Source: a virus. Taken from it: a stretch of DNA of 34,958 nt. The stretch spans positions 1-34,958 of IMG/VR virus record IMGVR_UViG_3300009068_000097. One strand, given 5' to 3'. Below are positions 1,870 to 34,958 of the stretch, in pieces. Made by a program: the position numbers and the translations under genes. The notes under the pieces were generated by a model, which was not told the DNA's origin, did no database searches, and saw only the letters and a list, made by a program, of their open reading frames with translations. Position 1 is the stretch's first letter. The number at the start of each line of letters is the position of its first letter.

Positions 1870-1873
1870 TATT

Positions 1874-2320: not shown

Positions 2321-2327
2321 ATAAATA
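2320..2327 (+). promoter_or_regulatory. Perfect T4-type late promoter TATAAATA for the rightward baseplate operon
   Basis: TATAAATA on the plus strand is identical to the T4 late promoter -10 consensus recognised by the gp55-type late sigma factor. It lies in the divergent spacer between gp4 and gp48 and its first base is the last base of the gp4 start codon. The predicted start site near 2333 leaves a leader of about 25 nt before the gp48 ATG at 2358. I see no equally good element for the leftward gp4 gene. Confidence 0.7.
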
Positions 2328-2357
2328 CTATATATTCATCTATTTTGGATCTCAAAA

Positions 2358-3647
2358 ATGTCAATTTTCACGCTCAATGAAGTTCAATTTCTCACTGAAA
2401 ATCATCGTGATGTGGTAGCAGATAATAGTGTTATAAACAAATATGGTAATGCAGGAACGGGTTCGTCGTATAGATATCCAATAGATTTGGGAACCTTGCC
2501 ATATAATCACTATATTAATTTTCAAGTCTATGTTCGCGAAAAAATCAATAGCGAATTTGGTGTAAAAACTGATGATGGAGATCCTGTCGCTTACATGATA
2601 CGAAATGCATTGATTTCATCTAGAGGACAATCATTAACAGAAGGATTAAAAAGTATTGGTGAAGGACTTGATGCAATAAAATCTTCGGTGGGAGGGGCGA
2701 TATCAGATAAAATATCTTCCAATGCAATACTAGATGAAAGTTTAAATTCTATAAATTCTTTTTTTGGCGCCGGTGTATCAGCGCGAAGTTCTGGAACATC
2801 AGAAAATGCAGAAATAACATCGTTATCTTCATATTTTAAACCAGAAGTAACAAATAGAAATTATTTTATTGAACAAGCGGCTAAAGCAATAAAACAAGAA
2901 GCTCAAAGCGCATTCAATACTCTAAAAAGAGCAAAAGAATCAATCTCTCTTTATATGCCAGATCAATTGAATTTCGATTATTCTCACCAATATGAAGATG
3001 CGGGGCTCAGTTCAAACAAGTTTATAAAAACTGCACAAATCGCTTCAGCAGGGTTTGGGGCTGGTTCTTTTGGAAAAGCAGCTAAAAACCTCACTCCATT
3101 TTTATATGAAGCTCTTGATAATAAAGTGGGAGCAGGTGGGGTTATATTAGGCGGAGCTTTTGGTTATGCAGTAAATCCTCAATATGAGGTGTTATATAGT
3201 TCAACGGCATTAAGGCAATTTCAGTTCGATTTTCTATTCACGCCAAGAAGTGAAAAGGAAGCTGAACAAGTATATAACATAATTGAATCATTCAAGTTTC
3301 ATTCATCTCCAGAAATTTTATCCGGCACATCTGGAAGATTTTTACTTGCTCCTTCAGCTTTTGATATTGGATTTTATTACAATGGAACAAGAAATCCAAA
3401 TATACCATTAATATCAACATGTGTTTGTGAAAATGTTTCTGTCGATTATGCGCCTCAAGGATTCTCTGCATACGAAACAACTGATAATAAACCCGGAGTT
3501 GGAAAAACTGGAACTCCCGTCGCGACAAGATTGTCTTTGAGATTTAAAGAAATTACATTGGTCACAAAAGAATTGATAAGAGGTCAAACTCTTAGTGAAG
3601 CAGGCATTTCAAATGACAGAAAGTCTAGTTCAAGAGGTTCTTTCTAA
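2358..3647 (+). CDS. 48: Baseplate tail-tube cap protein gp48
   Basis: The 429-aa product is longer than T4 gp48 (364 aa). Its N-terminus contains RYPIDLGTLPYNHYINFQVY, typical of the family. The C-terminal half carries NPQYEVLYSSTALRQFQFDF (about residues 274-293), FTPRSEKEAEQVYNII and FHSSPEI, the hallmark block of T4-like tube cap proteins. A low-complexity Ser/Ala/Gly-rich segment (about 100-165) separates the two parts. gp48 binds the top of the hub and, with gp54, starts tube and sheath polymerisation. It is the first gene of the rightward operon, with only a weak TTGGA upstream. It ends RGSF and its stop overlaps the gp53 ATG (TAATG). Confidence 0.88.
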   Translation: MSIFTLNEVQFLTENHRDVVADNSVINKYGNAGTGSSYRYPIDLGTLPYNHYINFQVYVREKINSEFGVKTDDGDPVAYMIRNALISSRGQSLTEGLKSIGEGLDAIKSSVGGAISDKISSNAILDESLNSINSFFGAGVSARSSGTSENAEITSLSSYFKPEVTNRNYFIEQAAKAIKQEAQSAFNTLKRAKESISLYMPDQLNFDYSHQYEDAGLSSNKFIKTAQIASAGFGAGSFGKAAKNLTPFLYEALDNKVGAGGVILGGAFGYAVNPQYEVLYSSTALRQFQFDFLFTPRSEKEAEQVYNIIESFKFHSSPEILSGTSGRFLLAPSAFDIGFYYNGTRNPNIPLISTCVCENVSVDYAPQGFSAYETTDNKPGVGKTGTPVATRLSLRFKEITLVTKELIRGQTLSEAGISNDRKSSSRGSF

Positions 3648-4279
3648 TGGCAAACTTCTTCAATTACTTTCCAAAAACTGCATATATTTCCAACGAAAAA
3701 TCTTCGCTGACATTAGTCACTAATATTTTGACTCGCGTCAAATTTCTCGATGCCATCAAGAATAATGTTTCTGCGTATTATCTTTATAGCGTAAAAGATG
3801 GAGAAACACCAGAAAATTTAGCATTCAGATTTTACGGCTCAATGGAAAGACATTGGATAATTCTTCTTTTGAATGATATTCGAGATCCGCAATTTGATTG
3901 GTGCATGAATTATGAAACATTTAACAAATATATCAGTGAAAAATATGGGTTGACTTATGCTCAATCTACAGTTAAAAAATATTTGATTGATGAGACAAGA
4001 TCTATCTCCTCTTTACGTTCTAGTGTAACAGAAACCCGAGAAACTGATTATGATACATGGAATTCTTTTGCTACATCTTCAACTATATTAACACTCACCA
4101 ATTCATTAAACTATACGATGACAAAAACAACTTCAAAAAGAACGCAGACGATATATGATTATGAATTAGAGTTAAACGAAGCGAAACGCTCAATAAAAGT
4201 TCTGAAAAAAGAGTATGTCGATTTGGTAGAAAAAGAACTTAAGAATATTGGAAACATAACTCCAGTTTCGGCTGTCTAA
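3647..4279 (+). CDS. 53: Baseplate wedge protein gp53 (LysM-like core)
   Basis: This 210-aa protein matches T4 gp53 (196 aa). The core YYLYSVKDGETPENLAFRFYG, followed by MERHWIILLLNDIRDPQFDW, is the family signature: a LysM-like segment and then the W-x-I-L-L-x-N motif. The N-terminus (FFNYFPKTAYI) is also typical. The C-terminal part (about 155-200) is charged and probably helical. In T4, gp53 joins neighbouring wedges and locks six of them around the hub. The start overlaps the gp48 stop, which suggests translational coupling. The next gene begins 2 bp after its stop. Confidence 0.88.
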   Translation: MANFFNYFPKTAYISNEKSSLTLVTNILTRVKFLDAIKNNVSAYYLYSVKDGETPENLAFRFYGSMERHWIILLLNDIRDPQFDWCMNYETFNKYISEKYGLTYAQSTVKKYLIDETRSISSLRSSVTETRETDYDTWNSFATSSTILTLTNSLNYTMTKTTSKRTQTIYDYELELNEAKRSIKVLKKEYVDLVEKELKNIGNITPVSAV

Positions 4280-7608: not shown

Positions 7609-9648
7609 ATGGCAGCAAGACTACAAATAACAGATTTAGATTTTGATACAATCAAAAGCAATTTGATTCAATTCTTGAATCAGCAAAGCGAATTCTCGGA
7701 TTACAATTTTCAAGGATCTGCGCTGAGTGTTTTGATTGATCTTCTCGCATATAACACACATTACAATGCGTATTATCTAAACATGATTGCTAACGAATCT
7801 TTTCTAGATACTGCATTGCTTCGAGATTCCGTAGTCTCTCATGCAAAATTAATGAGCTATCTTCCCGCTTCAAGAAATGCTCCTATCGCTACAGTCAACA
7901 TCACTGTCGATTCTGGAAGCACAACGATAGATACTTTAATTATTCCTCGCGGAACGGTTTTTAGTTCCGAAATTATCGATGATTATCCATATAATTTCGT
8001 TACTATTGAAAATCACACCGTAACAAAATCAAATACGAAATATTTGTTTGAGAATATCGATCTTTATGAAGGAATACTGAATTCATATACATTCACGCAA
8101 GATAATAATTCAAATCCAAAGCAGATCTTTACACTACCGGACACTAACATTGATACAAGAACATTGAAAGTTTCTGTCAATGAAAATCCAGGCTCAAATT
8201 CGAATTATACGACATATCAGTCATCAACTAACATATTGGATCTAAACTCATCATCTGAAGCATATTTCTTACAAGAAGGAAGAGACCAGAAGTTTGAAAT
8301 TTACTTTGGCGACGATTACATCTCTAAAAAGATAGCAGATGGTTCTAAAGTCATAGCATCATATGTTATAACAAATGGAACAGCAGCAAATAAAGCCAAT
8401 ACTTTTATTCCAACTGGACCAATTGGCGGATATTCTGATATAACAATCACTTCCATTACAGCAGCCGCTGGTGGTAATGAAAGAGAATCTGTCGATTCGA
8501 TTAAATTCTCTGCAACCAAAAAGTATTCAACACAAAATAGATTAGTGACAGCTAAGGATTATGCTGCATATATCAAGTCAAATTATCCCGGAGTTCAATC
8601 GATTTCTGTTTGGGGTGGAGAAGAACAAACTCCAATCGTCTACAATAAAACCTTCATCGCACTTAAATTAAAAGATGGGTATTATCTATCTGAAACCGAA
8701 AAGAAAAGAATAATTGATGAAATCGTTACACCAAAAGCTGTTATAGCAACAGCAGCAGAAATTGTTGATCCTAATTACCTCTACATTTTGGTTGAAGGAA
8801 CTATTAATTATGACTCTGAAAAGACAAACCTTTCCTCAAAAGATTTAAAGACAAAAGCGATAAATGCAATAAGAAATTACAATACGACATATCTAGAAAC
8901 ATTTGATTCAAGATATGTTCAATCCAGATTGCAGGATGATATCGACAATGCTGATTCATCTTTTGTGGGTAGTGTGATTAGAACAAAAGTTCAGAGAAGA
9001 CCTGATGTTAAATTAAACGAATATTCACAATATACCATCGATTACGGAATCGAATTAAACCGAGGAAGTCTAAATGATAGATTGGTTTCCAGCTATTTTG
9101 ACATTTTTGATTTTCAAGGCATTAGAAGAACTGCTAGAATTGAGGAAATTTCATATTCGTTTACGGGCATTGATTCGATAGAAATCATCAATTCAGGATT
9201 CAATTTCAAAACGATACCAACCATCACTATAAGTGGTGATGGATATGGAGCTGAAGCTGTAGCTACAATTAGTAACGGCAAATTGACTGCAATCACGCTC
9301 ACAAATAGGGGCATCAATTATACCAGAGCTTTTGTCACAATTACAGGTGATGGAGTTTCTGCTTCTGCTATTGCAAATCTACAGGGAAATATTGGAAAGC
9401 TCAGAGTTGTTTATTACAATGAACTATCAGAAGCAAAAGAAATCCTATCTGATGCAGGAACGATATACTATAACACAGGCATAGTTCAAACGAATGCAAT
9501 AAAAATTCTATCAATTGGTCCAGAAGATGGAATCTTTAGAGTCACTGCTTATGCAAAAGATTCCGTCATAAAATCTGATAGAGATACGATAGTTTCTATT
9601 GATAAGGACAGTGCGGATTCGATATTGATTAGTGTGGAGCCAGTATGA
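7609..9648 (+). CDS. 6: Baseplate wedge protein gp6
   Basis: The 679-aa product matches T4 gp6 (660 aa). The N-terminus has the conserved block FQGSALSVLIDLLAYNTHYN, then AYYLNMIANESFLDTALLRD and LMSYLPASRNAPIA. The middle contains the gpJ-like core (VTAKDYAAYIKSNYPGVQSI, VWGGEE). gp6 dimers form the iris-like ring that links wedges in the baseplate. A beta-module with two GDG-type repeats (about 523-595: SGFNFKTIPTITISGDGYGA, then NRGINYTRAFVTITGDG) is not something I know from T4 gp6 and recurs in the next three proteins. The stop overlaps the next gene start (ATGA). Confidence 0.93.
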   Translation: MAARLQITDLDFDTIKSNLIQFLNQQSEFSDYNFQGSALSVLIDLLAYNTHYNAYYLNMIANESFLDTALLRDSVVSHAKLMSYLPASRNAPIATVNITVDSGSTTIDTLIIPRGTVFSSEIIDDYPYNFVTIENHTVTKSNTKYLFENIDLYEGILNSYTFTQDNNSNPKQIFTLPDTNIDTRTLKVSVNENPGSNSNYTTYQSSTNILDLNSSSEAYFLQEGRDQKFEIYFGDDYISKKIADGSKVIASYVITNGTAANKANTFIPTGPIGGYSDITITSITAAAGGNERESVDSIKFSATKKYSTQNRLVTAKDYAAYIKSNYPGVQSISVWGGEEQTPIVYNKTFIALKLKDGYYLSETEKKRIIDEIVTPKAVIATAAEIVDPNYLYILVEGTINYDSEKTNLSSKDLKTKAINAIRNYNTTYLETFDSRYVQSRLQDDIDNADSSFVGSVIRTKVQRRPDVKLNEYSQYTIDYGIELNRGSLNDRLVSSYFDIFDFQGIRRTARIEEISYSFTGIDSIEIINSGFNFKTIPTITISGDGYGAEAVATISNGKLTAITLTNRGINYTRAFVTITGDGVSASAIANLQGNIGKLRVVYYNELSEAKEILSDAGTIYYNTGIVQTNAIKILSIGPEDGIFRVTAYAKDSVIKSDRDTIVSIDKDSADSILISVEPV

Positions 9649-12600
9649 GTTTGATTGATAATAAAGTTTCGCTTTTAGTACAGGGGCAATTACCAGAGTT
9701 TATTCGAGAAGATTATCAGACTTTTGTTCGATTCATAGAAGCGTATTATGAATTTTTGGAAAATAAACAGACTGGTAAAAACAATGATCTTTATACAAGA
9801 GCGAAGGAGCTTGTTGACATAAAAGATGTTGATGTTTCATTGGATGAATTTGAAGATCAATTTTTTGACACTTTTCTTGAATTATTTCCAAAAGATACTC
9901 TCGCATCAAAGAGTCTTTTAATCAAAAATGCAGTTCCATTTTATCTCTCAAAAGGAAATGAGAAGTCCTTTAGATACTTTTTTCGTGCGCTGTTCAATGA
10001 AGAAATTGACATAGAAATTCCAAGAAATGATGTTCTGATCGCATCTGGTGGTAATTGGAAAATTATTAGAGTATTGAGAGCGCAGAATTCTAACATAAAA
10101 AGTCTATATGAAATAAAATCTAGTGACGATTTAAATTCTAAAAAGTTTTATCTTCCGTTTGAAGTTGGCGTTGATGATATACAATTGTCACTCACAGATC
10201 CCTCAGACAACTTTATAATAGATCTAACATTTGCTGGAGAAAGCAATATCGATTATTGGAATTATTCTGCTGGTAGGACTTTTTATATTGATTCACCGGT
10301 TGGTCCTACTGATGACAATGGAAATAATCCATATGTCAATATATTTCCGGGAATCTATTATGGTTTTATTTACTCAGGCGATGTAATGGGAATTAATTTG
10401 GACGTTACCGGGCAATATCTATATTTTTCTATTACGAATAGGTTCGCTCCGGTACCTGGGTATCTTAATAAAATACAATGCATTAGAAAATATAAACTTA
10501 ATACTCCATTATACCTTTTTGATGGATACACTAATGTACAAGATTATGATTTATCATTTTTATATGTTGCAGATATATACGGAAATTCAATTAGAAGACC
10601 TTACGCCGTTTTTATTTCTCCAGATCAAAAAAATGCATATTTTTTACAAGTGCAAGACGATACTGGAAAAACTAAAATTCTACAATATAGTTTTGGAGTA
10701 GCTGGAGATTTAACTACCTTAACAAATACAGCAAAAACTCTCGACGTTTCAATTTCGATCACTACATCATTTCAAACAGCATTAACTTTTAGTGATGATG
10801 GAACTAAAATATATCTGGCAGATCATACTGGCGAACAGTACATAAAACAATATAACCTATCGACAGCTTGGGATTTATCAACATATACAACATCAAAAAC
10901 ATCGGCAAATTCGATTGAGCAAATTATTTTTACGGGTGGAGGAGATATATCTGCTCCCACACAAAAATACATAATATCAATTAAATTGAGACCTGATGGT
11001 AAAAAATTATATTGTCTGACTTCAAACAATGGAAAATTTATTGAATTTGGATTGGAAACTCCTTGGGATATATCCAATTTAACTTATATATCGGGACAAA
11101 ATTTTAATGGATTGGGTTCTGGCTCATATGGAGGAGATAAATGTTTTACGATTTCTTCAGATGGTAGCACTATTTTTGCATATACTCAAAAGGGTTCGGA
11201 TGTTGTTACCGGCGCCATATCTGGTTCGCCAGAAACAAGAACTTGTGTAATTTATCAATGGCGAGTCAACAACACCACTCTAGCAACTCCAGGAAATGTT
11301 CTTTTACAGAAAGAGTATAAAAAATTATCAATAGACCAAAATTCTATCTATAATTATAGACTTCCATATGATTCAGTATATCTAAATGTTACCTACAACA
11401 ATTTTGATTCCTCGATTCTATATAATCGAAAAATAACAGGCGACACATCTGGAGCTTCAGGTCTAATCGAATCGATATCAAATTATTCTAATTTTGAAAC
11501 TGATATTTTTGAATTCGAAATTAATCCAAAAACTATCGAAGGCGAGTTCATAAAAGGCGAAAACTTTACGACCGATGTTTTGGACGAAAACGAAGATGCT
11601 ATCACTATAAAATTAAATTCAGCATCAAAACTGACCAAAATCAATTTGACTGATGGTGGATATTCTTATAATGTCGGTGATGCAGTTTCAATATATGCTG
11701 GAGATCCGATAACTCCAGCAACAGCAATTATCTCCGAAATATATTCAGGAGTATACAATAAAATAGCAGTATCATATGGTGGGGCAGGATTTACAGCTTT
11801 AGCACCAATTGTTACATCGAATGTTTATCCATATTCAATGAATGCGATTGTTGCTGTAGTTGATACTTCTGGAAGTGTTAGCGCGAACACGATAAAAATC
11901 AACAATAATCTAATACTTGACGTTTCAAATGTATCAATAAACACAGCGAATTATAAAGCAAATAGCATTTTCCTTTCTTCATCTTTATCATTAGTGAATG
12001 CAAATTCGCGAATGATTGATGCGTTTAGCTACACGACAGTTACATCTGTTGGTCCCGTGAGTGAAGTTTATGTGTTCGATTCTAATATTCCTCAAGCTAA
12101 TGCATTAACATTAAATGCAACGGGAGCAAAAGTCTCAGTATCAAATACGAGCGGGATATTTACTACAAATGCAGCAATTAAGACAATTGGTTGTATTGGT
12201 AGAGTAGATATACTTGCAGAAGGATCTGGTTATTCAGTTGGTGATAAATTGGTGTTTACTCCAATTGAAGGAAGAACTTTGGGATATGGAGCAGCAGGAG
12301 CTGTTACAGCAGTTGATGGATCTGGAGCAATAACAAAAGTAGAATTGCAACCATTTACATATTCTTCTAATGCAAATTATAGCGTAAGTGTTGTTGTAAA
12401 TGCGACAGATTCTTCAAATGTTGCAGGCAATAATACTAATTTTCAAGTTGATTTTAAGCCTGGTTATCAAATTATGGTTTTCAACCAAGCAAGAATTATC
12501 AACGGAATTACATCAAATACATCAATGAATGTCACTTCGCCGTTCACTACCACTAAATCCGCAACTGACATTGGATTATATGATCTATATCCTATAGGTG

Positions 12601-14798
12601 GGCAGGGATATACAGCAGATGCATTGCCATTAGTTACAGTATCATCATCTACTGGAACTGGAGCAAAATTAGTCGCTAATTGTATAATGGGTTCTGGAGA
12701 TTCATTGATTGCATCAGGAACTAATAAGCAAGGTGAAATAAAGACGATAACAATAGTCAGCCCTGGGCTTGGTTATAAAGCAGCGCCAATCATCGATTTA
12801 ACTACTAAAGGATCTGGAACGGCAAAAGCCACATCGGAAATACAAGAATCATATTACCTTTACGATGGAAAATATGTAGGAACTCAGGGTCAACTTTCTG
12901 GCGATAAAAAAATTCAAGATAGTGCATTTTATAACACTGGATCATATGTTTTAAAAACGAAGCAACAATTTTCAAGATTCAAATCTTCATTATTAAAACT
13001 CTTGCATCCATCAGGTTCTGTCGCATATGCTCAATACACTCCAGAAGAAAAATCGATATATCCTGGCGGAGTAACTTTGGTTTCATCTACAACGCAGAAA
13101 ACGGTTTCTACTCCAGTTCTTGATTTGGATTTTACTTTAGAAACTTTGAATACTTCTTTCACTACATCTGGTTCATATAACATCTATACATCCAATGCTT
13201 CCTCAAATACATCAATTGTTTCATTTATTCGTTCATCAAATGCGACATATGTTGGAAGTGATGGTTACATAAAAACCGCTGGAATCAATCAGCCAAGATT
13301 TAATTATAATGCAGTCACGAAACAAAATAAGGGGCTTTTACTTGAAACAGGTATTACAAATCTCGCTGCAAATTCAGGAAATTTAGCAACGAATTCTTGG
13401 GATTCTCGCGGAATTATACTTAAATCAGTTGTTCCAAATGCAGCATTAGGTCCTGATGGAACTCAATCGATGACTTATGTAAAAGTACCTAGCACAGCAA
13501 GAAGTTTATATGCGAATTCTTTCGCGTCGGCGACAAATATAATTTTTGTTCAAAATCAAGGAATATCTCCAATCATCCTCTCAGTAGAACCAACATTTTC
13601 TTATTATTGGAATGTTTCTGGGCAAGGGATAGCTACTGGCACATATGTCGTTTCTGCAAATAATTCAAATAATTTCTTATTGTTATCGACGAATACTACC
13701 GCTGCGGGAGGTAATGGAACAAATGATACTTCAAATACGGCAAATACATTAACATTTACTTTCTCTTCAGTACAAGCAATTTATGGAAATCATCCTTCTG
13801 GAATAACATTATCCAACAACACGACATATACAGTATCTGCATTTTTCAAATTAACAAATCCTATAGAAATATCTACAATTAATTTTGGTCTTTTAGGACA
13901 GTCATATGATGGACCATTTGGATATGCATTTAGTCGATTTGATTTAGCCAATAATACTGTAACTAATGCGGGATTTGGTGGAAGTAATACATCAGGAACA
14001 ATTACAGATTATGGAAATCAAATATATCGATTAGCAGTTAGAGCTACTACAAATACAACATCTGGAGCAGCTGCAACTACGACAAATTATCCTGGTATTC
14101 AATTGTTAAATGGTACTAATAATTTTTATAGTCCAGAAGCAGCTGGTCTAGTAGGAAAAGGTTTATATGTATGGGGTATGCAAGTAGAACAGCGCGATGC
14201 TCCGTCAAGTTATATACCGACAACAACTGCTGCGGCGACTAGATCCGATGATAGATTTACAATCGGTGGATCTAATTTTACGAATTGGTTTAATCAAACT
14301 GAGGGAACTTTCAATTTATCAATGAGAATTAATCATGCGATAAGAATTGTTAGTACAGGATTTCCATTCATTGTCAATAAATTGTCTACGTCATACGCCG
14401 ATAGTTATCAACTTAGAGCAATTGGAGCTAATGTGGGTGGTGATCCTGCAGTTTATGGTGCGTTCGATTTGTTAGTTCTCAAGGACGGCACGTTGCGTAT
14501 GGACACTAACGGATTTCAAGGTTGGGGTCCTTCTTCAGCGGGCATAAATAATTCACCAATTCCAATTACATTCTCTTTTGGTTATAAAGCCAACAATTTT
14601 GGAAGTACAGTAAATGGTCAAACAATTGAAATTTCTAATGTTCCATCAAGCAATATTCCTAATGGGCTTGACAATTTAATATTAGGTTTTCCTGGTAATC
14701 AGTTATCTATGGATGTAAACCGATTAACTTACTATCCATATAGATTATCAAACAATGCGATTCAATATATCACCGGAAATACATCAATTTCATTATAA
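9645..14798 (+). CDS. 7: Giant gp7-like baseplate wedge protein with propeller and lectin-like insertions
   Basis: The gene after gp6 encodes 1717 aa (T4 gp7 is 1032 aa). Residues 1-145 (LPEFIREDYQTFVRFIEAYY, LFPKDTLASKSLLIKNAVPF, GNEKSFRYFFRALFNEE) are the conserved N-terminus seen in this position in T4-like cyanophages. From about 245 to 540 several blades of the form F-S-x-D-G-T-K-I-Y and QYNLSTAWDLSTYT suggest an inserted beta-propeller. Residues about 580-1140 hold TSGA, GSGY and DFKPG modules. From about 1155 a domain with VSFIRSSNATYVGSDGYIK, KGLLLETGITNL and YVWGMQVEQRDAPSSYIPTT resembles lectin/carbohydrate-binding regions of phage tail proteins. The wedge role is from position and N-terminus. 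The extra domains point to surface or glycan contact. Confidence 0.65.
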   Translation: MSLIDNKVSLLVQGQLPEFIREDYQTFVRFIEAYYEFLENKQTGKNNDLYTRAKELVDIKDVDVSLDEFEDQFFDTFLELFPKDTLASKSLLIKNAVPFYLSKGNEKSFRYFFRALFNEEIDIEIPRNDVLIASGGNWKIIRVLRAQNSNIKSLYEIKSSDDLNSKKFYLPFEVGVDDIQLSLTDPSDNFIIDLTFAGESNIDYWNYSAGRTFYIDSPVGPTDDNGNNPYVNIFPGIYYGFIYSGDVMGINLDVTGQYLYFSITNRFAPVPGYLNKIQCIRKYKLNTPLYLFDGYTNVQDYDLSFLYVADIYGNSIRRPYAVFISPDQKNAYFLQVQDDTGKTKILQYSFGVAGDLTTLTNTAKTLDVSISITTSFQTALTFSDDGTKIYLADHTGEQYIKQYNLSTAWDLSTYTTSKTSANSIEQIIFTGGGDISAPTQKYIISIKLRPDGKKLYCLTSNNGKFIEFGLETPWDISNLTYISGQNFNGLGSGSYGGDKCFTISSDGSTIFAYTQKGSDVVTGAISGSPETRTCVIYQWRVNNTTLATPGNVLLQKEYKKLSIDQNSIYNYRLPYDSVYLNVTYNNFDSSILYNRKITGDTSGASGLIESISNYSNFETDIFEFEINPKTIEGEFIKGENFTTDVLDENEDAITIKLNSASKLTKINLTDGGYSYNVGDAVSIYAGDPITPATAIISEIYSGVYNKIAVSYGGAGFTALAPIVTSNVYPYSMNAIVAVVDTSGSVSANTIKINNNLILDVSNVSINTANYKANSIFLSSSLSLVNANSRMIDAFSYTTVTSVGPVSEVYVFDSNIPQANALTLNATGAKVSVSNTSGIFTTNAAIKTIGCIGRVDILAEGSGYSVGDKLVFTPIEGRTLGYGAAGAVTAVDGSGAITKVELQPFTYSSNANYSVSVVVNATDSSNVAGNNTNFQVDFKPGYQIMVFNQARIINGITSNTSMNVTSPFTTTKSATDIGLYDLYPIGGQGYTADALPLVTVSSSTGTGAKLVANCIMGSGDSLIASGTNKQGEIKTITIVSPGLGYKAAPIIDLTTKGSGTAKATSEIQESYYLYDGKYVGTQGQLSGDKKIQDSAFYNTGSYVLKTKQQFSRFKSSLLKLLHPSGSVAYAQYTPEEKSIYPGGVTLVSSTTQKTVSTPVLDLDFTLETLNTSFTTSGSYNIYTSNASSNTSIVSFIRSSNATYVGSDGYIKTAGINQPRFNYNAVTKQNKGLLLETGITNLAANSGNLATNSWDSRGIILKSVVPNAALGPDGTQSMTYVKVPSTARSLYANSFASATNIIFVQNQGISPIILSVEPTFSYYWNVSGQGIATGTYVVSANNSNNFLLLSTNTTAAGGNGTNDTSNTANTLTFTFSSVQAIYGNHPSGITLSNNTTYTVSAFFKLTNPIEISTINFGLLGQSYDGPFGYAFSRFDLANNTVTNAGFGGSNTSGTITDYGNQIYRLAVRATTNTTSGAAATTTNYPGIQLLNGTNNFYSPEAAGLVGKGLYVWGMQVEQRDAPSSYIPTTTAAATRSDDRFTIGGSNFTNWFNQTEGTFNLSMRINHAIRIVSTGFPFIVNKLSTSYADSYQLRAIGANVGGDPAVYGAFDLLVLKDGTLRMDTNGFQGWGPSSAGINNSPIPITFSFGYKANNFGSTVNGQTIEISNVPSSNIPNGLDNLILGFPGNQLSMDVNRLTYYPYRLSNNAIQYITGNTSISL

Positions 14799-25436: not shown

Positions 25437-25670
25437 ATGCCAATAACAGCAATAGTCAATACCAATCAATCAACAACGGTTGAGTTACGAACGAATAAGA
25501 CAACGGTTTCGATGTTGCCTATTTCGACAACAGCAGATATTGCAAGTCTTTCACAGATACAAGATGTTGACGCGAGTGATCCAGATAATAATGAGGTACT
25601 TGTATATGATCAAACTCAGAATAAATATGTAATCAAAACACTTCCTGTAGTTCAAGGGGGCACTTTCTAA
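25437..25670 (+). CDS. Small protein ending in GGTF, fibre region
   Basis: A 77-aa product beginning MPITAIVNTNQSTTVELRTN. The second half contains SLSQIQDVDASDPDNNEVLVYDQTQNKYVIKTLP, a pattern seen in phage fibre proteins where a D-x-D-x-N-E-V-L-x-Y-D-x-x-x-x-K-Y motif precedes a beta shaft. It ends VVQGGTF. The stop abuts the next ATG (TAAATG). It may be a separate N-terminal or adaptor piece of a split fibre. I know no function. Confidence 0.7.
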   Translation: MPITAIVNTNQSTTVELRTNKTTVSMLPISTTADIASLSQIQDVDASDPDNNEVLVYDQTQNKYVIKTLPVVQGGTF

Positions 25671-26843
25671 ATGGCTAATACAGTAATTCAAATAAAATAT
25701 TCTACTACAACAGCAGCCCCCACTACACTAAACGTAGGTGAATTAGCATATTCATATGCAAGCGCAAATCTTTTTATAGGGAATACAACCAGCACAGGTG
25801 TAATTCAACTTCCTATAGGTAATACTGGAGTAACTGCAACTACATATGGTGGAGCTTCAATAGTTCCGGTGTTTACCGTAGATGCTAAAGGTCGAATAAC
25901 TTCAGCGACTAATGTCTCTATTTCTTCGGCAGCAACAATAACTGCAGGAAGCAATGGCAGTGGTGGAACATTTACCAATACATTAAACGTAAAGAGCGGT
26001 AGCGCAGGTCTATCAACAAATTTCGTTGACGCTGAAGACACATTTTATATCACAGCAGACAATTCTTTCATTCGAAATACTGGAACTCAATCAATAACAG
26101 GCGATTTAAGTGTTATTGGCAACCTTACCGTTACCGGCACTCAAACTCTAGTTAATACTTCGTCATTATCAATAACAGACTCTCTAATAAAATTAGCAAA
26201 TAATAATACTGTAAGTGACGTTTTAGATATTGGTTTCTATGGTACATCGAATCCTGGTTCGGGTGTAGTATATCACGGCTTACTTCGTCAAGCAACAACA
26301 GGAAACTTTTTCCTATTCAAAAATATAACAGCAGAACCCACAGGAAATGTATTAGCAACAGGTTCTGCTACCGCAGCAAATACAGCTAATCTTCGCGTAA
26401 ATATTGTAGGCGGCACAATCTCTAGTTTAGATTCTGCGATTGCTGTTGGTCAAGGAGGTACTGGTTCAACTACATTTACTAATGGCAATTTAATTACTTT
26501 TAATGGAACGAGTTTAGTTTCACTAGCAAATACAACATCAGCTGGTACCTATGGAAACTCCGCTTATCATCCAGTAATTACTGTAGATTCTTTAGGTAGA
26601 GTCACTGCGGTTACCAATACAGCAATTGCTATTGATACTAGCGCAATCACTACTGGCACATTGTCTGTCGCAAGAGGTGGCACTGGTAATACAGCATTCA
26701 CGACCAATGGTGTTATGATTTCCAATACAACTTCTACAACAGGAGCACTCTCTGTATTGACAAGTGCGACAGAAGGGCATGTATTGCAAATTTCTTCTGT
26801 CGGTCAACCGTCATTTGCTATGTTGCAAGGTGGTACGTTCTAA
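25671..26843 (+). CDS. Tail fibre-like protein with Mtd/HylP-style N-terminus and GGTG repeats
   Basis: This 390-aa protein starts MANTVIQIKYSTTTAAPTTL, NVGELAYSYASANLFIGNT, the pattern of the short N-terminal beta domain of phage fibre proteins (Mtd-like: I-Q-I-K..., then GELA-Y/F, then L-F/Y-I-G). A Ser/Thr/Asn-rich shaft follows, with DLSVIGNLTVTGTQTL and the repeated fibre motif VGQGGTGSTTFTNG / VARGGTGNTAFTTNG (about residues 262 and 340). It ends MLQGGTF. The next coiled-coil gene is 28 bp downstream. The shared N-terminus with the protein at 27436 suggests both dock at the same kind of site. No receptor-binding head is evident. Confidence 0.75.
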   Translation: MANTVIQIKYSTTTAAPTTLNVGELAYSYASANLFIGNTTSTGVIQLPIGNTGVTATTYGGASIVPVFTVDAKGRITSATNVSISSAATITAGSNGSGGTFTNTLNVKSGSAGLSTNFVDAEDTFYITADNSFIRNTGTQSITGDLSVIGNLTVTGTQTLVNTSSLSITDSLIKLANNNTVSDVLDIGFYGTSNPGSGVVYHGLLRQATTGNFFLFKNITAEPTGNVLATGSATAANTANLRVNIVGGTISSLDSAIAVGQGGTGSTTFTNGNLITFNGTSLVSLANTTSAGTYGNSAYHPVITVDSLGRVTAVTNTAIAIDTSAITTGTLSVARGGTGNTAFTTNGVMISNTTSTTGALSVLTSATEGHVLQISSVGQPSFAMLQGGTF

Positions 26844-26871: not shown

Positions 26872-27429
26872 ATGCAATTTGAAAATGGAACTGATGTTCA
26901 CTTTATGAATGAATATGTTCAAGTGGTTTCTCAGAATCTTGATGTAATCATGAAGAATAGCTTTTTGCTTCAAGCGAAATACAATGTTTTAGAAAAAGCA
27001 TTGAACCAAAGAATTGGAAATGATGGTCAAGTATCCGAACAAATCTCTGAATTACAGAGACAAATTTCATCTCTTGCTGAAGAGAAAAATCATTTGATTA
27101 ATAGAGAACAAGATGTTTCTGGAGAGAGACATAGAATTCAAAATTTATTTAATCAAGAAATGCGAGATCATGCTCAATTAAAATTGAATTATTCAGCTTT
27201 AGAGATTGAAAAAGCTGAGTTGTTGAAAAATTTAAAAGATGCGCTTGATAACAATCAAATTCTAAACGAAAAGATTTTAGAGTTACAAAAACCAGTTGAA
27301 GTAAAGGCTGTCAAATTTGAAAAAACTTCAGAAGAAGTTAATCCTGTAAAGAAAGAACAAAAGACCTTAAAGAAAGATCTTCTGAATAAGTCTTCAAAAA
27401 TAGAAGTGAAATCTGGCGGAACATTTTAA
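26872..27429 (+). CDS. Coiled-coil structural protein ending in GGTF
   Basis: The 185-aa product is almost entirely helical. It opens with MQFENGTDVHFMNEYVQVVS, QNLDVIMKNSF, an N-terminus I recognise from coiled-coil proteins in the same region of T4-like cyanophages. A long heptad-rich stretch follows (about 45-140: SELQRQISSLAEEKNHLINR ... IEKAELLKNLKDAL), then a Lys/Glu-rich tail ending KSGGTF. A strong ribosome site (AGAGAGG) precedes the ATG. It may be a trimeric whisker-like or fibre-linker protein, comparable in style to T4 fibritin (wac, in the equivalent region), but no sequence match to wac is claimed. Confidence 0.7.
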   Translation: MQFENGTDVHFMNEYVQVVSQNLDVIMKNSFLLQAKYNVLEKALNQRIGNDGQVSEQISELQRQISSLAEEKNHLINREQDVSGERHRIQNLFNQEMRDHAQLKLNYSALEIEKAELLKNLKDALDNNQILNEKILELQKPVEVKAVKFEKTSEEVNPVKKEQKTLKKDLLNKSSKIEVKSGGTF

Positions 27430-27435
27430 GAAAAA

Positions 27436-28923
27436 ATGGCAAATACAACGATTCAAATAAAAAGTTCTGGATCTGCTGGAGTCGTTCCAAGCGGATTAGC
27501 TAATGGTGAGCTTGCGCTCAATTTTGCTGATGGAAAATTATATTTCAAAAATTCTAGTAGTGGCACAAGTTATTTTTCTACGACTGGTGGCCCAGCAGGA
27601 CCAGGAGGAAATAATAAAGAAGTACAATTTAATGATGCTGGAACTTTGACAGGAAATTCATCTTTTACTTTTGATAAAGCTAACACGACATTAACTGTCG
27701 GTTTACCCAGCAGCAATGCGAATTCGATTATTCAACCATCATTGATTGCTTCTGGTAGATTCATAAAATCGCCATATCAAATAGCAGCTCCTACATCTAT
27801 TGTTAATAAAGGTTCTGGAATATTAAGCGATAATGGAACAATATCTTCTCAAGGTATTGCTCCTATCGGTTTAGCGATAGATCCTACAGGCAAGTATGTT
27901 TATGTATCTAATTATAGCAGCGCAAATATAAGTCAATATAGCATCGATCAAACCACAGGAAATTTGACTAGCATTGGAACAATAACTGCCAATACCGGAC
28001 CTTGGAAAGTACAAGTAGATCCTACTGGTAGATTTGTATACGCAGCTAGTTCTGGTCAGAGTGTCGTATCCCAATATATTATTAATCAATCTAATGGCAC
28101 TTTATCTTATATTTCTTCTATTGGAGTAGGAGCAACTATTTGTAAAGGTCTAGCAGTAGATCCTACAGGTAGATTTCTTTTTGCTGCTGGGCAGAATCCT
28201 GAGTCTGTCGTTAGCGCATATAATATTAATCAAAGTAATGGTTATTTAAGTCTTATTGCTACATCTCCAACTGGTTCGTCATCTTTTGATCTAGCAGTAT
28301 ATCCTACCGGTAGATTTCTTTATGTAACTGATGCGTCGTCCGCATTTTTGTATGCATTTTCAATCAATCAAAGTACAGGAGCATTAATAGATAATATTGG
28401 CGGTGCTGCTTCAGGTGATGCGACTGAAGGTATAGCAGTAGATCCTACTGGTAGATTTGTATATGTGAATAACTATACATCAAATCTTATCAGAAATTAT
28501 AACATAAATCAGACAACTGGAGCATTAACTCTTATTGGTTCAATATCTACAGGAACTACACCGGAATATATTTCAATAGATCCTACGGGTAAATATCTTT
28601 ATATCAGCAATTATGGTAGCTCAAATGTAGGGCATTATAGCATCAATCAAACCACAGGAAATTTGACTAGCATTGGAACGATAAGTTCAGGTTCTTCACC
28701 AAGAGGATTGGCGGTTGATCCTACAGGCAAATTTCTTTATGTGAGTAATTATGGTTCGAATACAGTAAGTCAATATGTAATAAATAATTTTTCTGCCGGA
28801 AGCGCAAATATCGCAGGAACAATTACAGCAAAAACATATTCATTTCAAGATGGAACACAACAAACCACAGCATCAACACTAGGTCGAATTCATGCGCTTT
28901 CGGCTGGTTATGTGATTTTTTAA
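27436..28923 (+). CDS. Fibre protein carrying a seven-bladed YVTN/lactonase-type beta-propeller
   Basis: The 495-aa protein has three parts. Residues 1-65 (MANTTIQIKSSGSAGVVPSG, LANGELALNFADGKLYFKN) are the short fibre N-terminal domain also present in the product at 25671. Residues about 110-460 contain seven copies of a unit with core [I/V]DPTG[K/R][F/Y][L/V][Y/F] (one copy has YPTG), each followed by QY-x-I-N-Q-x-T/N-G-x-L. This is the YVTN/lactonase-type propeller pattern. The C-terminus (SFQDGTQQTTASTLGRIHAL) is a typical fibre ending. Propellers of this type usually bind ligands or proteins, and no lactonase active-site claim can be made. Receptor or glycan binding is inferred. Confidence 0.85.
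   Translation: MANTTIQIKSSGSAGVVPSGLANGELALNFADGKLYFKNSSSGTSYFSTTGGPAGPGGNNKEVQFNDAGTLTGNSSFTFDKANTTLTVGLPSSNANSIIQPSLIASGRFIKSPYQIAAPTSIVNKGSGILSDNGTISSQGIAPIGLAIDPTGKYVYVSNYSSANISQYSIDQTTGNLTSIGTITANTGPWKVQVDPTGRFVYAASSGQSVVSQYIINQSNGTLSYISSIGVGATICKGLAVDPTGRFLFAAGQNPESVVSAYNINQSNGYLSLIATSPTGSSSFDLAVYPTGRFLYVTDASSAFLYAFSINQSTGALIDNIGGAASGDATEGIAVDPTGRFVYVNNYTSNLIRNYNINQTTGALTLIGSISTGTTPEYISIDPTGKYLYISNYGSSNVGHYSINQTTGNLTSIGTISSGSSPRGLAVDPTGKFLYVSNYGSNTVSQYVINNFSAGSANIAGTITAKTYSFQDGTQQTTASTLGRIHALSAGYVIF
27937..27985 (+). repeat. Near-identical 49-bp segment shared by propeller blades 1 and 6
   Basis: This segment matches 28636-28684, 699 bp downstream, with two mismatches. It includes CACAGGAAATTTGACTAGCA in both copies. 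The other blades are much more diverged at DNA level, so blades 1 and 6 were recently duplicated or homogenised. Confidence 0.9.
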
Positions 28924-31728: not shown

Positions 31729-32646
31729 TTGGCAACTAATAACTATTTCAATCATTTTCCAGACTACATTACTGGAGAACAACTTCTCATAGAAGATCTT
31801 GTGATCGAATCCATTAAGCAATATGGAATGAACGTCTACTATATTCCTAGAGAATCTAGAGATCAGATCGACTTTCTTTATGGCGAAGAAACCATAAAGA
31901 AATTTACTCATGCATACTTTATTGAAATGTATCTAGAGAATGTTTTAGGTATGGAGGGGCAAGGTGGCGACATGATGTCCAAATTTGGTCTTGATATTCA
32001 AGACGAAGTAACCCTCTTAGTTGCCAGAAAAAGATTCAAAAATACAATTCCTTCTAGTCTAGCAATTAGACCTCGTGAAGGCGATTTAATTTATATACCA
32101 TTAGTTCAAAACTTTTTTGAAATAACATTCGTTGAACACGAAAATGATCAAGCGATGATGTATACATTAGGTAGAGGGCGCGGTGCAAATGTCTATCTTT
32201 TTGCGTTAAAAATGAAACAATTTGTCTTCTCTGAAGAGAAGGTTGATACTGGAATTGAAGAAATTGACGAACAATTATTTGATTCATATAGAAGAACTAC
32301 GCTCACATTAACCAGCGGAACAGGAGATTTTCTACCATTAGAAGTTGTTTATCAAGGAGTGCCCGCAAGCTGTTCATCTCCCGCAATGATGAATTCGACC
32401 GCTGTCGTTTATACATGGGATTCAGCAACAGGCACTCTCACAATCAATCAAACTGTTAACCAATTTATTTCTGGGGGCGGTCAAATTATAGGAAATACGT
32501 CAGGAGCAAATTGGACTCTAGACACAACAAATACACTTAATGATTATGATACTGCATTTGAAGACATTGTGGACAATAACAGAATTCAAGATGAAGCGTT
32601 TGCTATTATCAACTTCTCAGAATTAAATCCTTTTGGTAATCCATAA
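31729..32646 (+). CDS. 14: Neck protein gp14 with TTG start
   Basis: The 305-aa product (T4 gp14: 256 aa) starts with TTG at 31729. The residues after it (ATNNYFNHFPDYITGEQLLI EDLVIESIKQYG) are the conserved gp14 N-terminus, so a later ATG would cut off family sequence. FRNTIP-like and RPREGDLIYIPLVQNFFEIT segments and TLGRGRGANVYLFALKMKQF follow. A region about 190-268 (TLTLTSGTG ... VVYQG ... GGGQIIGNTSGANWTLDTTN) looks like an added module. The end (IQDEAFAIINFSELNPFGNP) is typical. gp14 partners gp13 in the neck. The gene starts 5 bp after the gp13 stop with no strong Shine-Dalgarno, and its own stop overlaps the gp15 ATG. Confidence 0.92.
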   Translation: MATNNYFNHFPDYITGEQLLIEDLVIESIKQYGMNVYYIPRESRDQIDFLYGEETIKKFTHAYFIEMYLENVLGMEGQGGDMMSKFGLDIQDEVTLLVARKRFKNTIPSSLAIRPREGDLIYIPLVQNFFEITFVEHENDQAMMYTLGRGRGANVYLFALKMKQFVFSEEKVDTGIEEIDEQLFDSYRRTTLTLTSGTGDFLPLEVVYQGVPASCSSPAMMNSTAVVYTWDSATGTLTINQTVNQFISGGGQIIGNTSGANWTLDTTNTLNDYDTAFEDIVDNNRIQDEAFAIINFSELNPFGNP

Positions 32647-33683
32647 TGTTTACGCCATTCTATAATAGAACAATTAGAAAAATGGTTGTAGCCTTTGGTA
32701 CGTTATTTAATAACATTACCATGATAAGATATAACAACAATCAACAACAAGAATATGAAAGAATCAAAGTTCCTATTGTTTATGGACCAAAAGAAAAATT
32801 CATAGAACGAATTACATCAGATCCAGATTTAACTCGTTCAATTGCAAATCATTTACCAAGAATGAGCTTTGAGCTTGTTGGAATATCATATGACGCATCA
32901 AGAAAACAAGTAACAACACTTAAGAGTTTTGGCAGTAATTCTTCTGCTGCAAATTCATTAAAAACTCAAAGTGTTGGTGTTCCTTATGATTTCACATTTA
33001 CTCTCAGTCTTTATGTGAGAAACATTGAAGATGGCACTCAAATAGTTGAGCAGATTCTTCCATATTTTACTCCAGATTACATACTATCGATCAATTTAGT
33101 TGATGGAATTCCAGAGACTACAAAAAACATTCCTTTCATTTTAGATTCAGTCGATAGCAATATTGACTACGAAGGCGATTTCACGACAACACGAATGATC
33201 ATTTGGACATTGAATTTTACAGCTAAAGGATATTTCTTTGGACCATTGAGTGACGCAAAAATTATCATGCGTAGAAATGACGGTTCAGGTATTGGTGGAG
33301 CAAACGTGAGATTCTATATTCAAAATAGCGATACGTCATTACAAAAAGTTTATGTCAATTCATTAACTGGATCTGGCACTTTCAAAGATGGTGAATCAAT
33401 TCGAGTTACAGGAAAACAGACAATAGGAACTGTTTATAGTTGGATAGCAAACACAAATATAATCGCAAATACAAGCACACTCATAGCAAAGGATTTAACT
33501 GATCCTTTAAATATAGGCGATGAAGTAAATGGCGACGAAACTAATGCAAGATATATCGTTTCCACATTAGGAGATACATATTATACATTAGCAAGAACCG
33601 AAACATATCAAAATCCTCTCTCAGCTAATGGTGTTGGTGATTTTGGATTCACAACAAATATTTTTGAATTTCCTAACGCATGA
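32646..33683 (+). CDS. 15: Tail completion and sheath stabiliser protein gp15
   Basis: The 345-aa product carries the gp15 signature: FTPFYNRTIRKMVVAFGTLF, NNITMIRYN, ERIKVPIVYGPKEKFIERIT, DPDLTRSIANHLPRMSFELV and GVPYDFTFTLSLYVRNIEDG, with FTTTRMIIWTLNFTAKGYFF closing the conserved core near residue 195. T4 gp15 is 272 aa. The extra C-terminal part (about 213-300: FYIQNSDTSLQ, GTFKDGESIRVTG, IGDEVNGDE) is an added beta-rich region. gp15 forms a hexameric ring on top of the tail and joins it to the neck. The start overlaps the gp14 stop (TAATG). Confidence 0.93.
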   Translation: MFTPFYNRTIRKMVVAFGTLFNNITMIRYNNNQQQEYERIKVPIVYGPKEKFIERITSDPDLTRSIANHLPRMSFELVGISYDASRKQVTTLKSFGSNSSAANSLKTQSVGVPYDFTFTLSLYVRNIEDGTQIVEQILPYFTPDYILSINLVDGIPETTKNIPFILDSVDSNIDYEGDFTTTRMIIWTLNFTAKGYFFGPLSDAKIIMRRNDGSGIGGANVRFYIQNSDTSLQKVYVNSLTGSGTFKDGESIRVTGKQTIGTVYSWIANTNIIANTSTLIAKDLTDPLNIGDEVNGDETNARYIVSTLGDTYYTLARTETYQNPLSANGVGDFGFTTNIFEFPNA

Positions 33684-33695
33684 TGATTCATTATT

Positions 33696-34118
33696 ATGAA
33701 AAATGTAAACGAAAAACTTTCTGAAGTTCTAGAAATAGAACCTATTTCTATCGAGACAGATTCAGTTCAAGAATTAATTCCAGTAGAAGCTGAAAATGAT
33801 ATTCTAGAAAATGACTTTAGTTTTGCTAGAGAAAATTTAAAAAAGCTAATTACTAAAGGCGCTGCTGCAATTGACGACATTCTTTTTGTAGCTAAAGAAT
33901 CCGAACATCCTAGAGCGTATGAAGTAGCATCTGCTTTTCTAAAGAATCTATCAGAGATGAACAAAGATCTTCTTGAATTGCAAAAAGCAAAAAAAGATGT
34001 ACTCAAACAAAATTCTCGCCAAGTAAATGACCCATCTATTACTGTACAAAAAGCAGTGTTTATTGGATCGACTAATGAGCTAAATAAGCTATTAAAAGCA
34101 CAAAAAGAAGAGGAATAA
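33696..34118 (+). CDS. 16: Terminase small subunit gp16
   Basis: The 140-aa product (T4 gp16: 164 aa) has an acidic N-terminus and the family core FSFARENLKKLITKGAAAID, DILFVAKESEHPRAYEVASA and FLKNLSEMNKDLLELQKAKK (about residues 40-105), forming the helical, coiled-coil centre of the oligomeric ring. The C-terminal end (DPSITVQKAVFIGSTNELNK LLKAQ) is also characteristic. gp16 regulates the gp17 motor and recognises the DNA to be packaged. It lies 12 bp after gp15. Unlike in T4, where gene 17 follows at once, a Dps-like gene is inserted 2 bp downstream. Confidence 0.9.
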   Translation: MKNVNEKLSEVLEIEPISIETDSVQELIPVEAENDILENDFSFARENLKKLITKGAAAIDDILFVAKESEHPRAYEVASAFLKNLSEMNKDLLELQKAKKDVLKQNSRQVNDPSITVQKAVFIGSTNELNKLLKAQKEEE

Positions 34119-34120
34119 AA

Positions 34121-34555
34121 ATGGAAGAATTAATCCAACAAATGAAAGTCGTTCTTGCAAATATGTTCGCTTTTTATCTTGAAGCACACTACTTTCATTG
34201 GAATGTAACTGGACCAGATTTTCCACAATTGCACGAATTTTTTGGAAATCTTTATGAATCTGTTCACGATTCTGTTGATGATATCGCAGAACATATTAGA
34301 GCATTGAATGAATACTCTCCCGGCACTTTAAGCAGATTTAAAGAACTAACAGAAATTGAAGAAGAAACTACTATTCTAAAAGATAGACAAATGGTAGCAA
34401 AACTTTTAATTGACAATAAGAAAGTAATCGATTGTTTGAATTCTGCTTTTAAACTTGCAATCAAAGCTGATCAACAAGGGCTTGCAAATTATCTTTCAGA
34501 ACGAGTTGATGCACATATGAAACATCAGTGGATGCTTAGAAGCATTATCAGTTAA
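34121..34555 (+). CDS. Dps/ferritin-like protein inside the terminase operon
   Basis: The 144-aa helical protein has the Dps signature: AHYFHWNVTGPDFPQLHEFF at residues 22-41, SVHDSVDDIAEHIRALNEYS at 47-66, then PGTLSRFKEL. Aligning to the E. coli Dps ferroxidase ligands H51, H63, D67, D78 and E82 gives H26, H38, G42, D53 and E57, so four of five are kept and one aspartate is glycine. The final helix (DQQGLANYLSERVDAHMKHQ WMLRSI) matches the Dps C-terminal helix. Dps proteins form 12-subunit cages that oxidise and store iron and often bind DNA. The Lys-rich N-terminal DNA-binding tail of E. coli Dps is absent. A good ribosome site (AAGAGGA) precedes it, and its stop overlaps the gp17 ATG. The phage role is unknown. 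Confidence 0.88.
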   Translation: MEELIQQMKVVLANMFAFYLEAHYFHWNVTGPDFPQLHEFFGNLYESVHDSVDDIAEHIRALNEYSPGTLSRFKELTEIEEETTILKDRQMVAKLLIDNKKVIDCLNSAFKLAIKADQQGLANYLSERVDAHMKHQWMLRSIIS

Positions 34556-34958
34556 TGACTCAGTTTGATGGTTATTTAGGCAATCCAAACCTAAAACGTG
34601 TTGGCGTAACTCTTAATTTTACTGAAGAACAAGTAAAAGAATATATACTCTGCTCTCAGGATCCAAACTATTTTATTGAGAATTATGTAAAAATCGTCAA
34701 CGTAGATAGAGGTCTTATTCCTTTTGATATGTATGCATTTCAAAGGAAAATGATCAAGACATTTCATGAGAATAGATTTACTATTGCTAAGATGCCTCGT
34801 CAGGTTGGTAAAACCTCAACGACAGTGGCATTTATGTTATGGTCAGTTTTATTTCATGACAACTATAGCATTGCCATTCTTGCAAACAAAGGTTCTCTTG
34901 CAAGAGAAATTCTTTCTAGAATTCAATTAGCATATGAGTATCTTCCTTTGTGGTTGCA
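34555..34958 (+). CDS. 17: Terminase large subunit gp17 (N-terminal part, cut by window end)
   Basis: The frame opens at ATG 34555 (TAATG overlap with the Dps-like gene) and runs to the window end, 134 codons. Residues 55-72 (IPFDMYAFQRKMIKTFHE) are followed by the Walker A motif PRQVGKTSTT at 81-90, with K86 as the ATP-binding lysine, and by IAILANKGSLAREILSRIQL AYEYLPLW, which aligns with the T4 gp17 segment after its Walker A. This is the packaging ATPase; Walker B and the nuclease domain lie outside. In T4 the Walker A lysine is near residue 166, so this protein has a much shorter N-terminal region. A different upstream start is not evident because the Dps-like frame is intact. Confidence 0.93.
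   Translation, partial: MTQFDGYLGNPNLKRVGVTLNFTEEQVKEYILCSQDPNYFIENYVKIVNVDRGLIPFDMYAFQRKMIKTFHENRFTIAKMPRQVGKTSTTVAFMLWSVLFHDNYSIAILANKGSLAREILSRIQLAYEYLPLWL

Follow-up and report, generated by a model that had tools for sequence, protein, structure and literature searches.

The window analyzed here, the whole 34,958-nt stretch of the IMG/VR virus record IMGVR_UViG_3300009068_000097, contains a gene for a Dps-like mini-ferritin between the genes of the small (gp16) and large (gp17) terminase subunits. The data showed that the dps gene in this slot is an old, selected part of an uncultured phage lineage that is sister to the cultured Kyanoviridae. The explanation we favor, and regard as fairly probable, is that it encodes a functional, phage-adapted Dps, which is made late together with the terminase and controls iron and peroxide in the cell by its ferroxidase activity, and that the slot serves as an expression niche.

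The dps open reading frame starts with ATG and encodes 144 amino acids without an internal stop (Table 1). The gp16 gene, whose product scores 35.6 bits against the Pfam DNA_Packaging family (cut-off 25), ends at position 34118, 2 bp before the dps ATG. At the other end, in a TAATG junction, the dps stop codon TAA (34553–34555) shares one base with the ATG of gp17 (34555). An earlier reading of the sequence alone had placed dps tightly inside the terminase operon on account of these two junctions, and the coordinates and the matches of the neighboring genes agree with it. The gp17 gene runs off the window, while in the near-identical contig L002 it is complete and encodes 546 amino acids (2088–3728). 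Because an identical Dps protein is found in the same arrangement in two other metagenome contigs (L002 and L003), the locus is not an assembly artefact. The GC content at third codon positions of dps (0.215) is inside the range of its neighbors (0.17–0.30). A search for T4-type late promoters (TATAAATA) around gp13–gp17 found none, so the late timing of dps rests on analogy, and a scan for terminators gave nothing informative.

Table 1. Features of the dps locus in window coordinates
Feature	Position	Strand	Basis
gp15, tail sheath stabiliser; upstream, in the same gp13–gp17 run	32646..33683	+	PF16724 3e-66
gp16, small terminase subunit (TerS), 140 aa, directly upstream of dps	33696..34118	+	PF11053 1e-8; PHROG 445 5e-36
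Candidate ribosome-binding site GAGGA, a few bp 5′ of the dps ATG, within the end of gp16	34109..34114	+	read from the sequence
dps, Dps-like mini-ferritin, 144 aa (stop codon counted in the position)	34121..34555	+	PF00210 7e-22; PHROG 3636 2e-32; AlphaFold2 pLDDT 97.6; PDB 8ff9 TM 0.96, rmsd 1.0
H26 codon, metal ligand, equivalent to H37 of P. aeruginosa Dps	34196..34198	+	invariant in 165/165 phage Dps; alignment and PMC10002758
H38 codon, equivalent to H49 of P. aeruginosa Dps	34232..34234	+	invariant in 165/165 phage Dps
G42 codon, at the place of D67 of E. coli Dps	34244..34246	+	E/D in 25/30 Pseudomonadota Dps sampled
D53 codon, equivalent to D64 of P. aeruginosa Dps	34277..34279	+	invariant in 165/165 phage Dps
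E57 codon, equivalent to E68 of P. aeruginosa Dps	34289..34291	+	invariant in 165/165 phage Dps
gp17, large terminase subunit (TerL), N-terminal part, runs off the window	34555..34958	+	PHROG 5989 2e-38

Outside this locus, the window carries a module of T4-like tail, baseplate and neck genes. Three consecutive proteins of its tail-fibre region (25437–25670, 25671–26843 and 26872–27429) share the C-terminus -GGTF, which is encoded by differing codons; the back-translated pattern occurred three times in the window and two to three times in the related 169 and 146 kb contigs, versus zero times as a reversed control. A 495-aa protein of the tail region (27436–28923) contains the repeated, beta-propeller-like sequence VDPTGRFVYV.. 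(YVTN/lactonase-like), and its best match is PHROG 19989. The very large tail protein encoded at 9645–14798 (1717 aa) is baseplate-wedge-like at its N-terminus and has a tail-protein domain at its C-terminus, with a long region in between.

The match of the window Dps to the Pfam Ferritin family reached 78.3 bits, well above the cut-off of 24.5, and its structure was predicted by AlphaFold2 using 52 aligned sequences. The model, obtained with very high confidence (Table 1), consists of helices at residues 2–28, 34–61, 88–115 and 119–143, with a short helix (70–76) in the B–C loop, which corresponds to the four-helix ferritin bundle. The top Foldseek matches were all Dps proteins, and the best among PDB structures was Pseudomonas aeruginosa Dps (PA0962; 8ff9), with 36% identity in the structural alignment. 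Hence, the Dps identity that had been proposed from signature residues is borne out by the predicted fold. P. aeruginosa Dps is a 12-mer, which oxidizes Fe2+ with H2O2 and shields cells from H2O2 (PMC10002758), and from the fold match we infer that the window Dps may form a 12-mer as well.

In P. aeruginosa Dps one iron (Fe1) is bound by H37, D64 and E68, and the other (Fe2) by H49 and E68 (PMC10002758), and the alignment showed that all four of these residues have counterparts in the window Dps. An acidic residue, common in Dps proteins at the position of E. coli D67, is replaced by G42 in the window Dps. Because the equivalent of position 42 is not among the iron ligands of P. aeruginosa Dps, an acidic residue there was not taken as defining Dps, and the metal site of the window protein is to be regarded as intact. 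The sequence-only reading had assigned H26, H38, D53, E57 and G42 correctly and counted four of five ferroxidase ligands; the four are present, while the fifth is indeed missing, at a position which is not a ligand in P. aeruginosa Dps. The usual absence of the acidic residue 42 of the cellular relatives could nevertheless mean that the activity is different. The protein begins at helix A, ends with residue 144 and has a net charge of −8; it has no lysine- or arginine-rich tail, in agreement with the absence of a lysine-rich DNA-binding tail reported before.

To learn what the gp16–gp17 slot contains in related phages, IMG/VR was scanned with gp17, and gp15, gp16, gp17 and Dps were mapped onto each locus. 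The scan was repeated with gp17 from another starting point, and the two agreed. Because both gp17 queries came from phages with Dps in the slot, and the best 80 loci per scan were taken, the prevalence given here is valid for the near clade and not for T4-like phages at large; the loci were chosen by gp17 only, hence there was no selection by Dps. The pooled slots from the best 80 loci of each scan contained Dps in 124 cases, were empty in 14, held another gene in 1, had no detectable gp16 in 1, and were cut by the contig end in 3. When these loci were made non-redundant at 99% gp17 identity, Dps was found in 62 of 72 slots and a homing endonuclease in 1, while in 9 of the 72 relatives the slot was empty, with gp16 directly abutting gp17; one further slot was cut. 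The slot was about 430 bp long in most relatives and its Dps was almost without exception 144–145 amino acids long, spaced by −1 to +11 bp from gp16 (−17 in one case) and mostly by −4 to +15 bp from gp17. The copies in the slot are only 38–61% identical to the window Dps, yet they are full length and their active site is invariant. Thus, dps is kept and has not decayed in the slot of the relatives, which was the outcome that the sequence-only reading had put at stake. It had also raised the question of whether G42 is conserved; glycine is common but not fixed at this position (G in 46, N in 17, D in 6, S in 2 and A in 2 of 73 slot copies).

The gene is absent from some relatives with gp16 and gp17 intact (9 empty slots and 1 endonuclease among 72), which matches the cargo of a Kyanoviridae-type gp16–gp17 hot-spot. 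No Dps was found elsewhere in the contigs lacking it in the slot, which are fragments. The homing endonuclease (PHROG 314, 6.5e-25) lies at 3414–3992 of contig L094, from an uncultured relative without Dps, and it is plausible that it acts as an agent of insertion into the slot. A random single insertion of dps was ruled out by the gp17 survey, and a decayed site by the invariant metal ligands.

The history of the slot was examined on a gp17 tree of 81 rows, calculated with IQ-TREE and rooted on cultured phages together with two distant contigs. The lineage with Dps in the slot formed a supported clade of 74 rows, adjoining the cultured Kyanoviridae S-PM2, S-SRM01, Mosig and Melnitz. The branch of the window, with 3 rows, was sister to the other 71 rows, and because Dps is present on both sides of this basal split, it is probably ancestral to the clade, with a few losses. 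On this tree the state of the slot took 5 changes, versus 15.8 in shuffles, and the simplest reading would be a single gain that predates the clade, followed by about four losses. The Dps tree was concordant, with 5 changes between slot and other locations versus 54 in shuffles. A reservation comes from contig L145, in which a slot Dps (1221–1655) placed near the main clade is followed by a very divergent gp17 (1655–3307), far off on the tree, so that gp17 or the whole module has possibly been exchanged at times. The dps gene is under purifying selection, with a median dN/dS of 0.11 and a maximum of 0.29 in 83 closely related pairs. These data bear on the idea that dps is a passive passenger, a recent insertion of a host gene without function. 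Although the slot is known as a hotspot of insertion (PMC2984593, PMC3037559), which would suit such a passenger, the probable ancestry of Dps in the clade, the full-length copies with an invariant active site, and the dN/dS of about 0.1 already contradict this idea, and we consider it hardly credible.

The phage proteins were also compared with cellular Dps. A scan of cellular genomes with a single slot protein gave one distant match, in Sphingomonas, and 200 genomes of its phylum (Pseudomonadota) were sampled, which yielded 30 usable Dps sequences. These cellular proteins have a sizeable extension in front of helix A, which usually opens with a DIGI-like stretch, and they carry T30 in 24, L37 in 27 and E42 in 24 of the 30 sequences. 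The phage proteins lack this N-terminal extension and begin at helix A; in most of them residue 30 is E, residue 37 is Y, and position 42 is occupied by G or N. The window Dps retains T30 and L37. The four metal ligands are invariant in all 73 slot and 92 non-slot phage Dps, W27 and W137 are nearly invariant in the same 165 sequences, and the residue at position 42 of the slot copies is G, N, S or A in 67/73 and D in 6/73. The median net charge of the phage proteins, −8, is the same as that of the window Dps. When the 30 cellular sequences were placed on a tree with the phage sequences, only 2 label changes were needed, so cellular Dps are mostly apart from phage Dps. No report of a phage-specific Dps sequence pattern was found in the open-licence literature.

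With regard to function, dps would be made late in infection on the terminase mRNA, and its product would assemble, probably as a dodecamer, with Fe2+ sites between subunits formed by H26 and H38 of one subunit and D53 and E57 of its partner. At these sites Fe2+ would be oxidized with H2O2 and the ferric iron stored in Dps, which would lessen the damage that Fenton chemistry does to freshly replicated phage DNA and to the dying host. Protection from iron and peroxide by the window Dps is plausible, and we infer ferroxidase activity, late co-transcription and a benefit to the infection. The position between gp16 and gp17 would then reflect an expression niche, a hotspot on a late operon, and not a part in packaging. 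On the other hand, dps resides in one slot more steadily than is usual for a mobile accessory gene, which speaks against this view.

That dps keeps its place between the two terminase genes throughout a broad clade, and is tightly coupled to both, could also be explained if Dps were a packaging accessory, which binds or organizes DNA or the terminase subunits as part of motor assembly. The interaction of P. aeruginosa Dps with DNA, which it cuts in vitro (PMC10002758), would fit such a role. However, the slot is dispensable for packaging, as losses left gp16–gp17 intact in the 9 relatives with an empty slot, and the empty slots of several lineages speak against a packaging accessory. Homologues are located tens of kilobases from gp17 in other T4-like phages, the protein has a net charge of −8 and no lysine-rich tail, and the strict conservation of metal ligands is unexpected for a pure scaffold. 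We therefore regard this role as improbable, and the packaging or DNA-compaction role suggested by the sequence-only reading finds little or no support, given that Dps-less relatives are apparently functional, that the slot can hold other cargo, and that the protein is acidic and tail-less. Because the slot is a hotspot, packaging works without Dps, and Dps is located elsewhere in other phages, a ferroxidase role at the level of the cell is likelier than a part in packaging.

The DNA cleavage by P. aeruginosa Dps, the closest solved relative, was unexpected and required the 12-mer and divalent cations (PMC10002758). By analogy, the window Dps with divalent metals might cut DNA and help to degrade the host chromosome. 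We consider such a nuclease role very improbable, since homology is no predictor of this activity, and late co-expression with packaging would endanger the phage's own DNA.

Another explanation is that Dps is present in or on the virion, either inside the head or serving to store iron, and is made beside the motor in order to be there at assembly, where it would guard DNA or deliver iron. The location of the slot within a head-packaging and neck operon is consistent with this explanation. To look for further signs, N-termini were scored for the motif [FY][ILV]xE within residues 4–14, which is modelled on T4 internal proteins, with the T4 capsid-targeting sequence and its cleavage rule as background. 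Near non-slot Dps such capsid-targeting-like N-termini were found in 69 of 834 genes versus 6.9 expected, with a motif chosen after inspection of the first set, and the enrichment was repeated in a largely separate non-slot set (52 of 487 genes versus 3.5 expected); regions far from Dps in three non-slot genomes gave 1 match in about 170 genes. In BFVD, the Dps fold occurs inside longer proteins of uncultured phages (333–763 aa), three of which, A0A6J7XDU5, A0A6J7WPK9 and A0A6J7WIS1, are named "Prohead protease". Mass spectrometry has also detected a ferritin-like protein in Vi01-like phage preparations (PMC10892097). Against a virion location, both slot and non-slot Dps are without the motif, including the window Dps with its N-terminus MEELIQQMKVVL; slot neighborhoods are nearly devoid of it (1 of 571 and 0 of 67 genes); no fused Dps was present among the IMG/VR loci fetched; and in the single infection test of PMC10892097 no dependence on the uptake of iron by the host was seen. 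Hence, the capsid-targeting-like neighbors and the longer BFVD proteins are leads and not proof of a virion role, which we consider possible though unlikely. The more specific proposal that a phage-specific Dps subfamily is a component of the virion or of head assembly, as an iron-oxidizing cage that guards packaged DNA or carries iron, and that is produced next to the terminase in one lineage and amid capsid-targeted proteins in others, appears doubtful to us; if true, phages would have a head protein of a new kind.

Around Dps in contigs L005, L022, L177, L204, L011 and others, the T4-like capsid-targeting N-termini were joined to varied domains, among them CTP_transf-like, chitinase class I and DUF6267 domains, and these proteins are possibly packaged cargo enzymes.

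The distribution of Dps beyond the clade was examined as well. The sequence-only reading had regarded Dps-like genes in phages as scattered cases only, but they are less scattered than that, as at least 591 IMG/VR stretches match Dps, besides the cases in gut and Lactobacillus phages (PMC8008677, PMC6669764). About 105 of the fetched IMG/VR loci have Dps away from the terminase, and in three large T4-like contigs (57–51% gp17 identity) it lies about 65–85 kb from gp17. In named phages, tblastn with the window Dps gave Dps matches of 24–43% identity; none was in the slot, with either the window Dps or a divergent slot member as the query, and no cultured Kyanoviridae phage was found with Dps between gp16 and gp17. 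The slot of these phages contains a 69-aa ORF in Mosig, an F5/8 C-domain protein in Melnitz, three small ORFs in S-PM2, and four ORFs in S-SRM01, whose own Dps is about 58 kb away; the genomes of S-PM2, Mosig and Melnitz gave no Dps match. In the S-SRM01 record MW015081 the names of the terminase large subunit and the tail sheath (L137 4980–6701 and 6764–8941) are apparently swapped, as the gp17 match falls under "tail sheath protein". The psbA domain PF00124 was absent from 15 related records, including the 169 and 146 kb contigs, which makes the usual psbA-bearing cyanophage identity less likely.

Taken together, a whole lineage of uncultured T4-like phages has the mini-ferritin as a conserved component of its terminase operon, and not as a stray acquisition. 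This makes it testable whether control of iron and peroxide is a general need late in lytic infection, and whether phage particles contain iron-handling proteins, as in the Ferrojan idea. The gene order gp16–dps–gp17 can also be used as a lineage marker in metagenomes.

Several known systems resemble the one described here. P. aeruginosa Dps shares with the window Dps the fold, the four iron ligands and the signature HWNVTGP-x-F-x2-LH, while it differs by its N-terminal extension, by a glutamate at the position of G42, and in being the product of a cellular gene. The members of PHROG 3636 ("DNA binding protein"), such as that of Proteus phage Privateer, and the Dps of Synechococcus phage S-SRM01 belong to a phage-encoded Dps family; in the two members inspected, Privateer and S-SRM01, the gene is located among replication or accessory genes and not between gp16 and gp17. 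Phage Dps has been proposed to act against iron and oxidative stress in gut Gratiaviridae, which have genes for DPS and manganese catalase (PMC8008677), and in Lactobacillus plantarum phages (PMC6669764). These are unrelated groups, for which the available portions of the two sources report no terminase-slot location, and the Lactobacillus gene is near DNA-metabolism genes. The product of gene 217 of the Vi01-like phage Sajous1 has a predicted ferritin fold, is possibly in an operon with a tail completion gene, and was detected by mass spectrometry (PMC10892097), but the fold was a Phyre2 prediction at 22% identity, and the gene is beside a tail gene and not the terminase. A parallel in location is provided by cyanomyoviruses, in which gp16–gp17 and the wider g15–g18 region are a hypervariable hot-spot (PMC2984593; PMC3037559; Millard 2009, as cited in PMC2984593), with host-like genes beside or between gp16 and gp17. 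The published cargo of this hot-spot is variable, including hypothetical and carbon-metabolism genes and similar ones, while here a single gene, dps, is kept across the clade. Both phage Dps and the gp16–gp17 hot-spot are already known, while no report of a lineage in which Dps is fixed between the two terminase genes was found in the open-licence literature; this is what appears to be new here.
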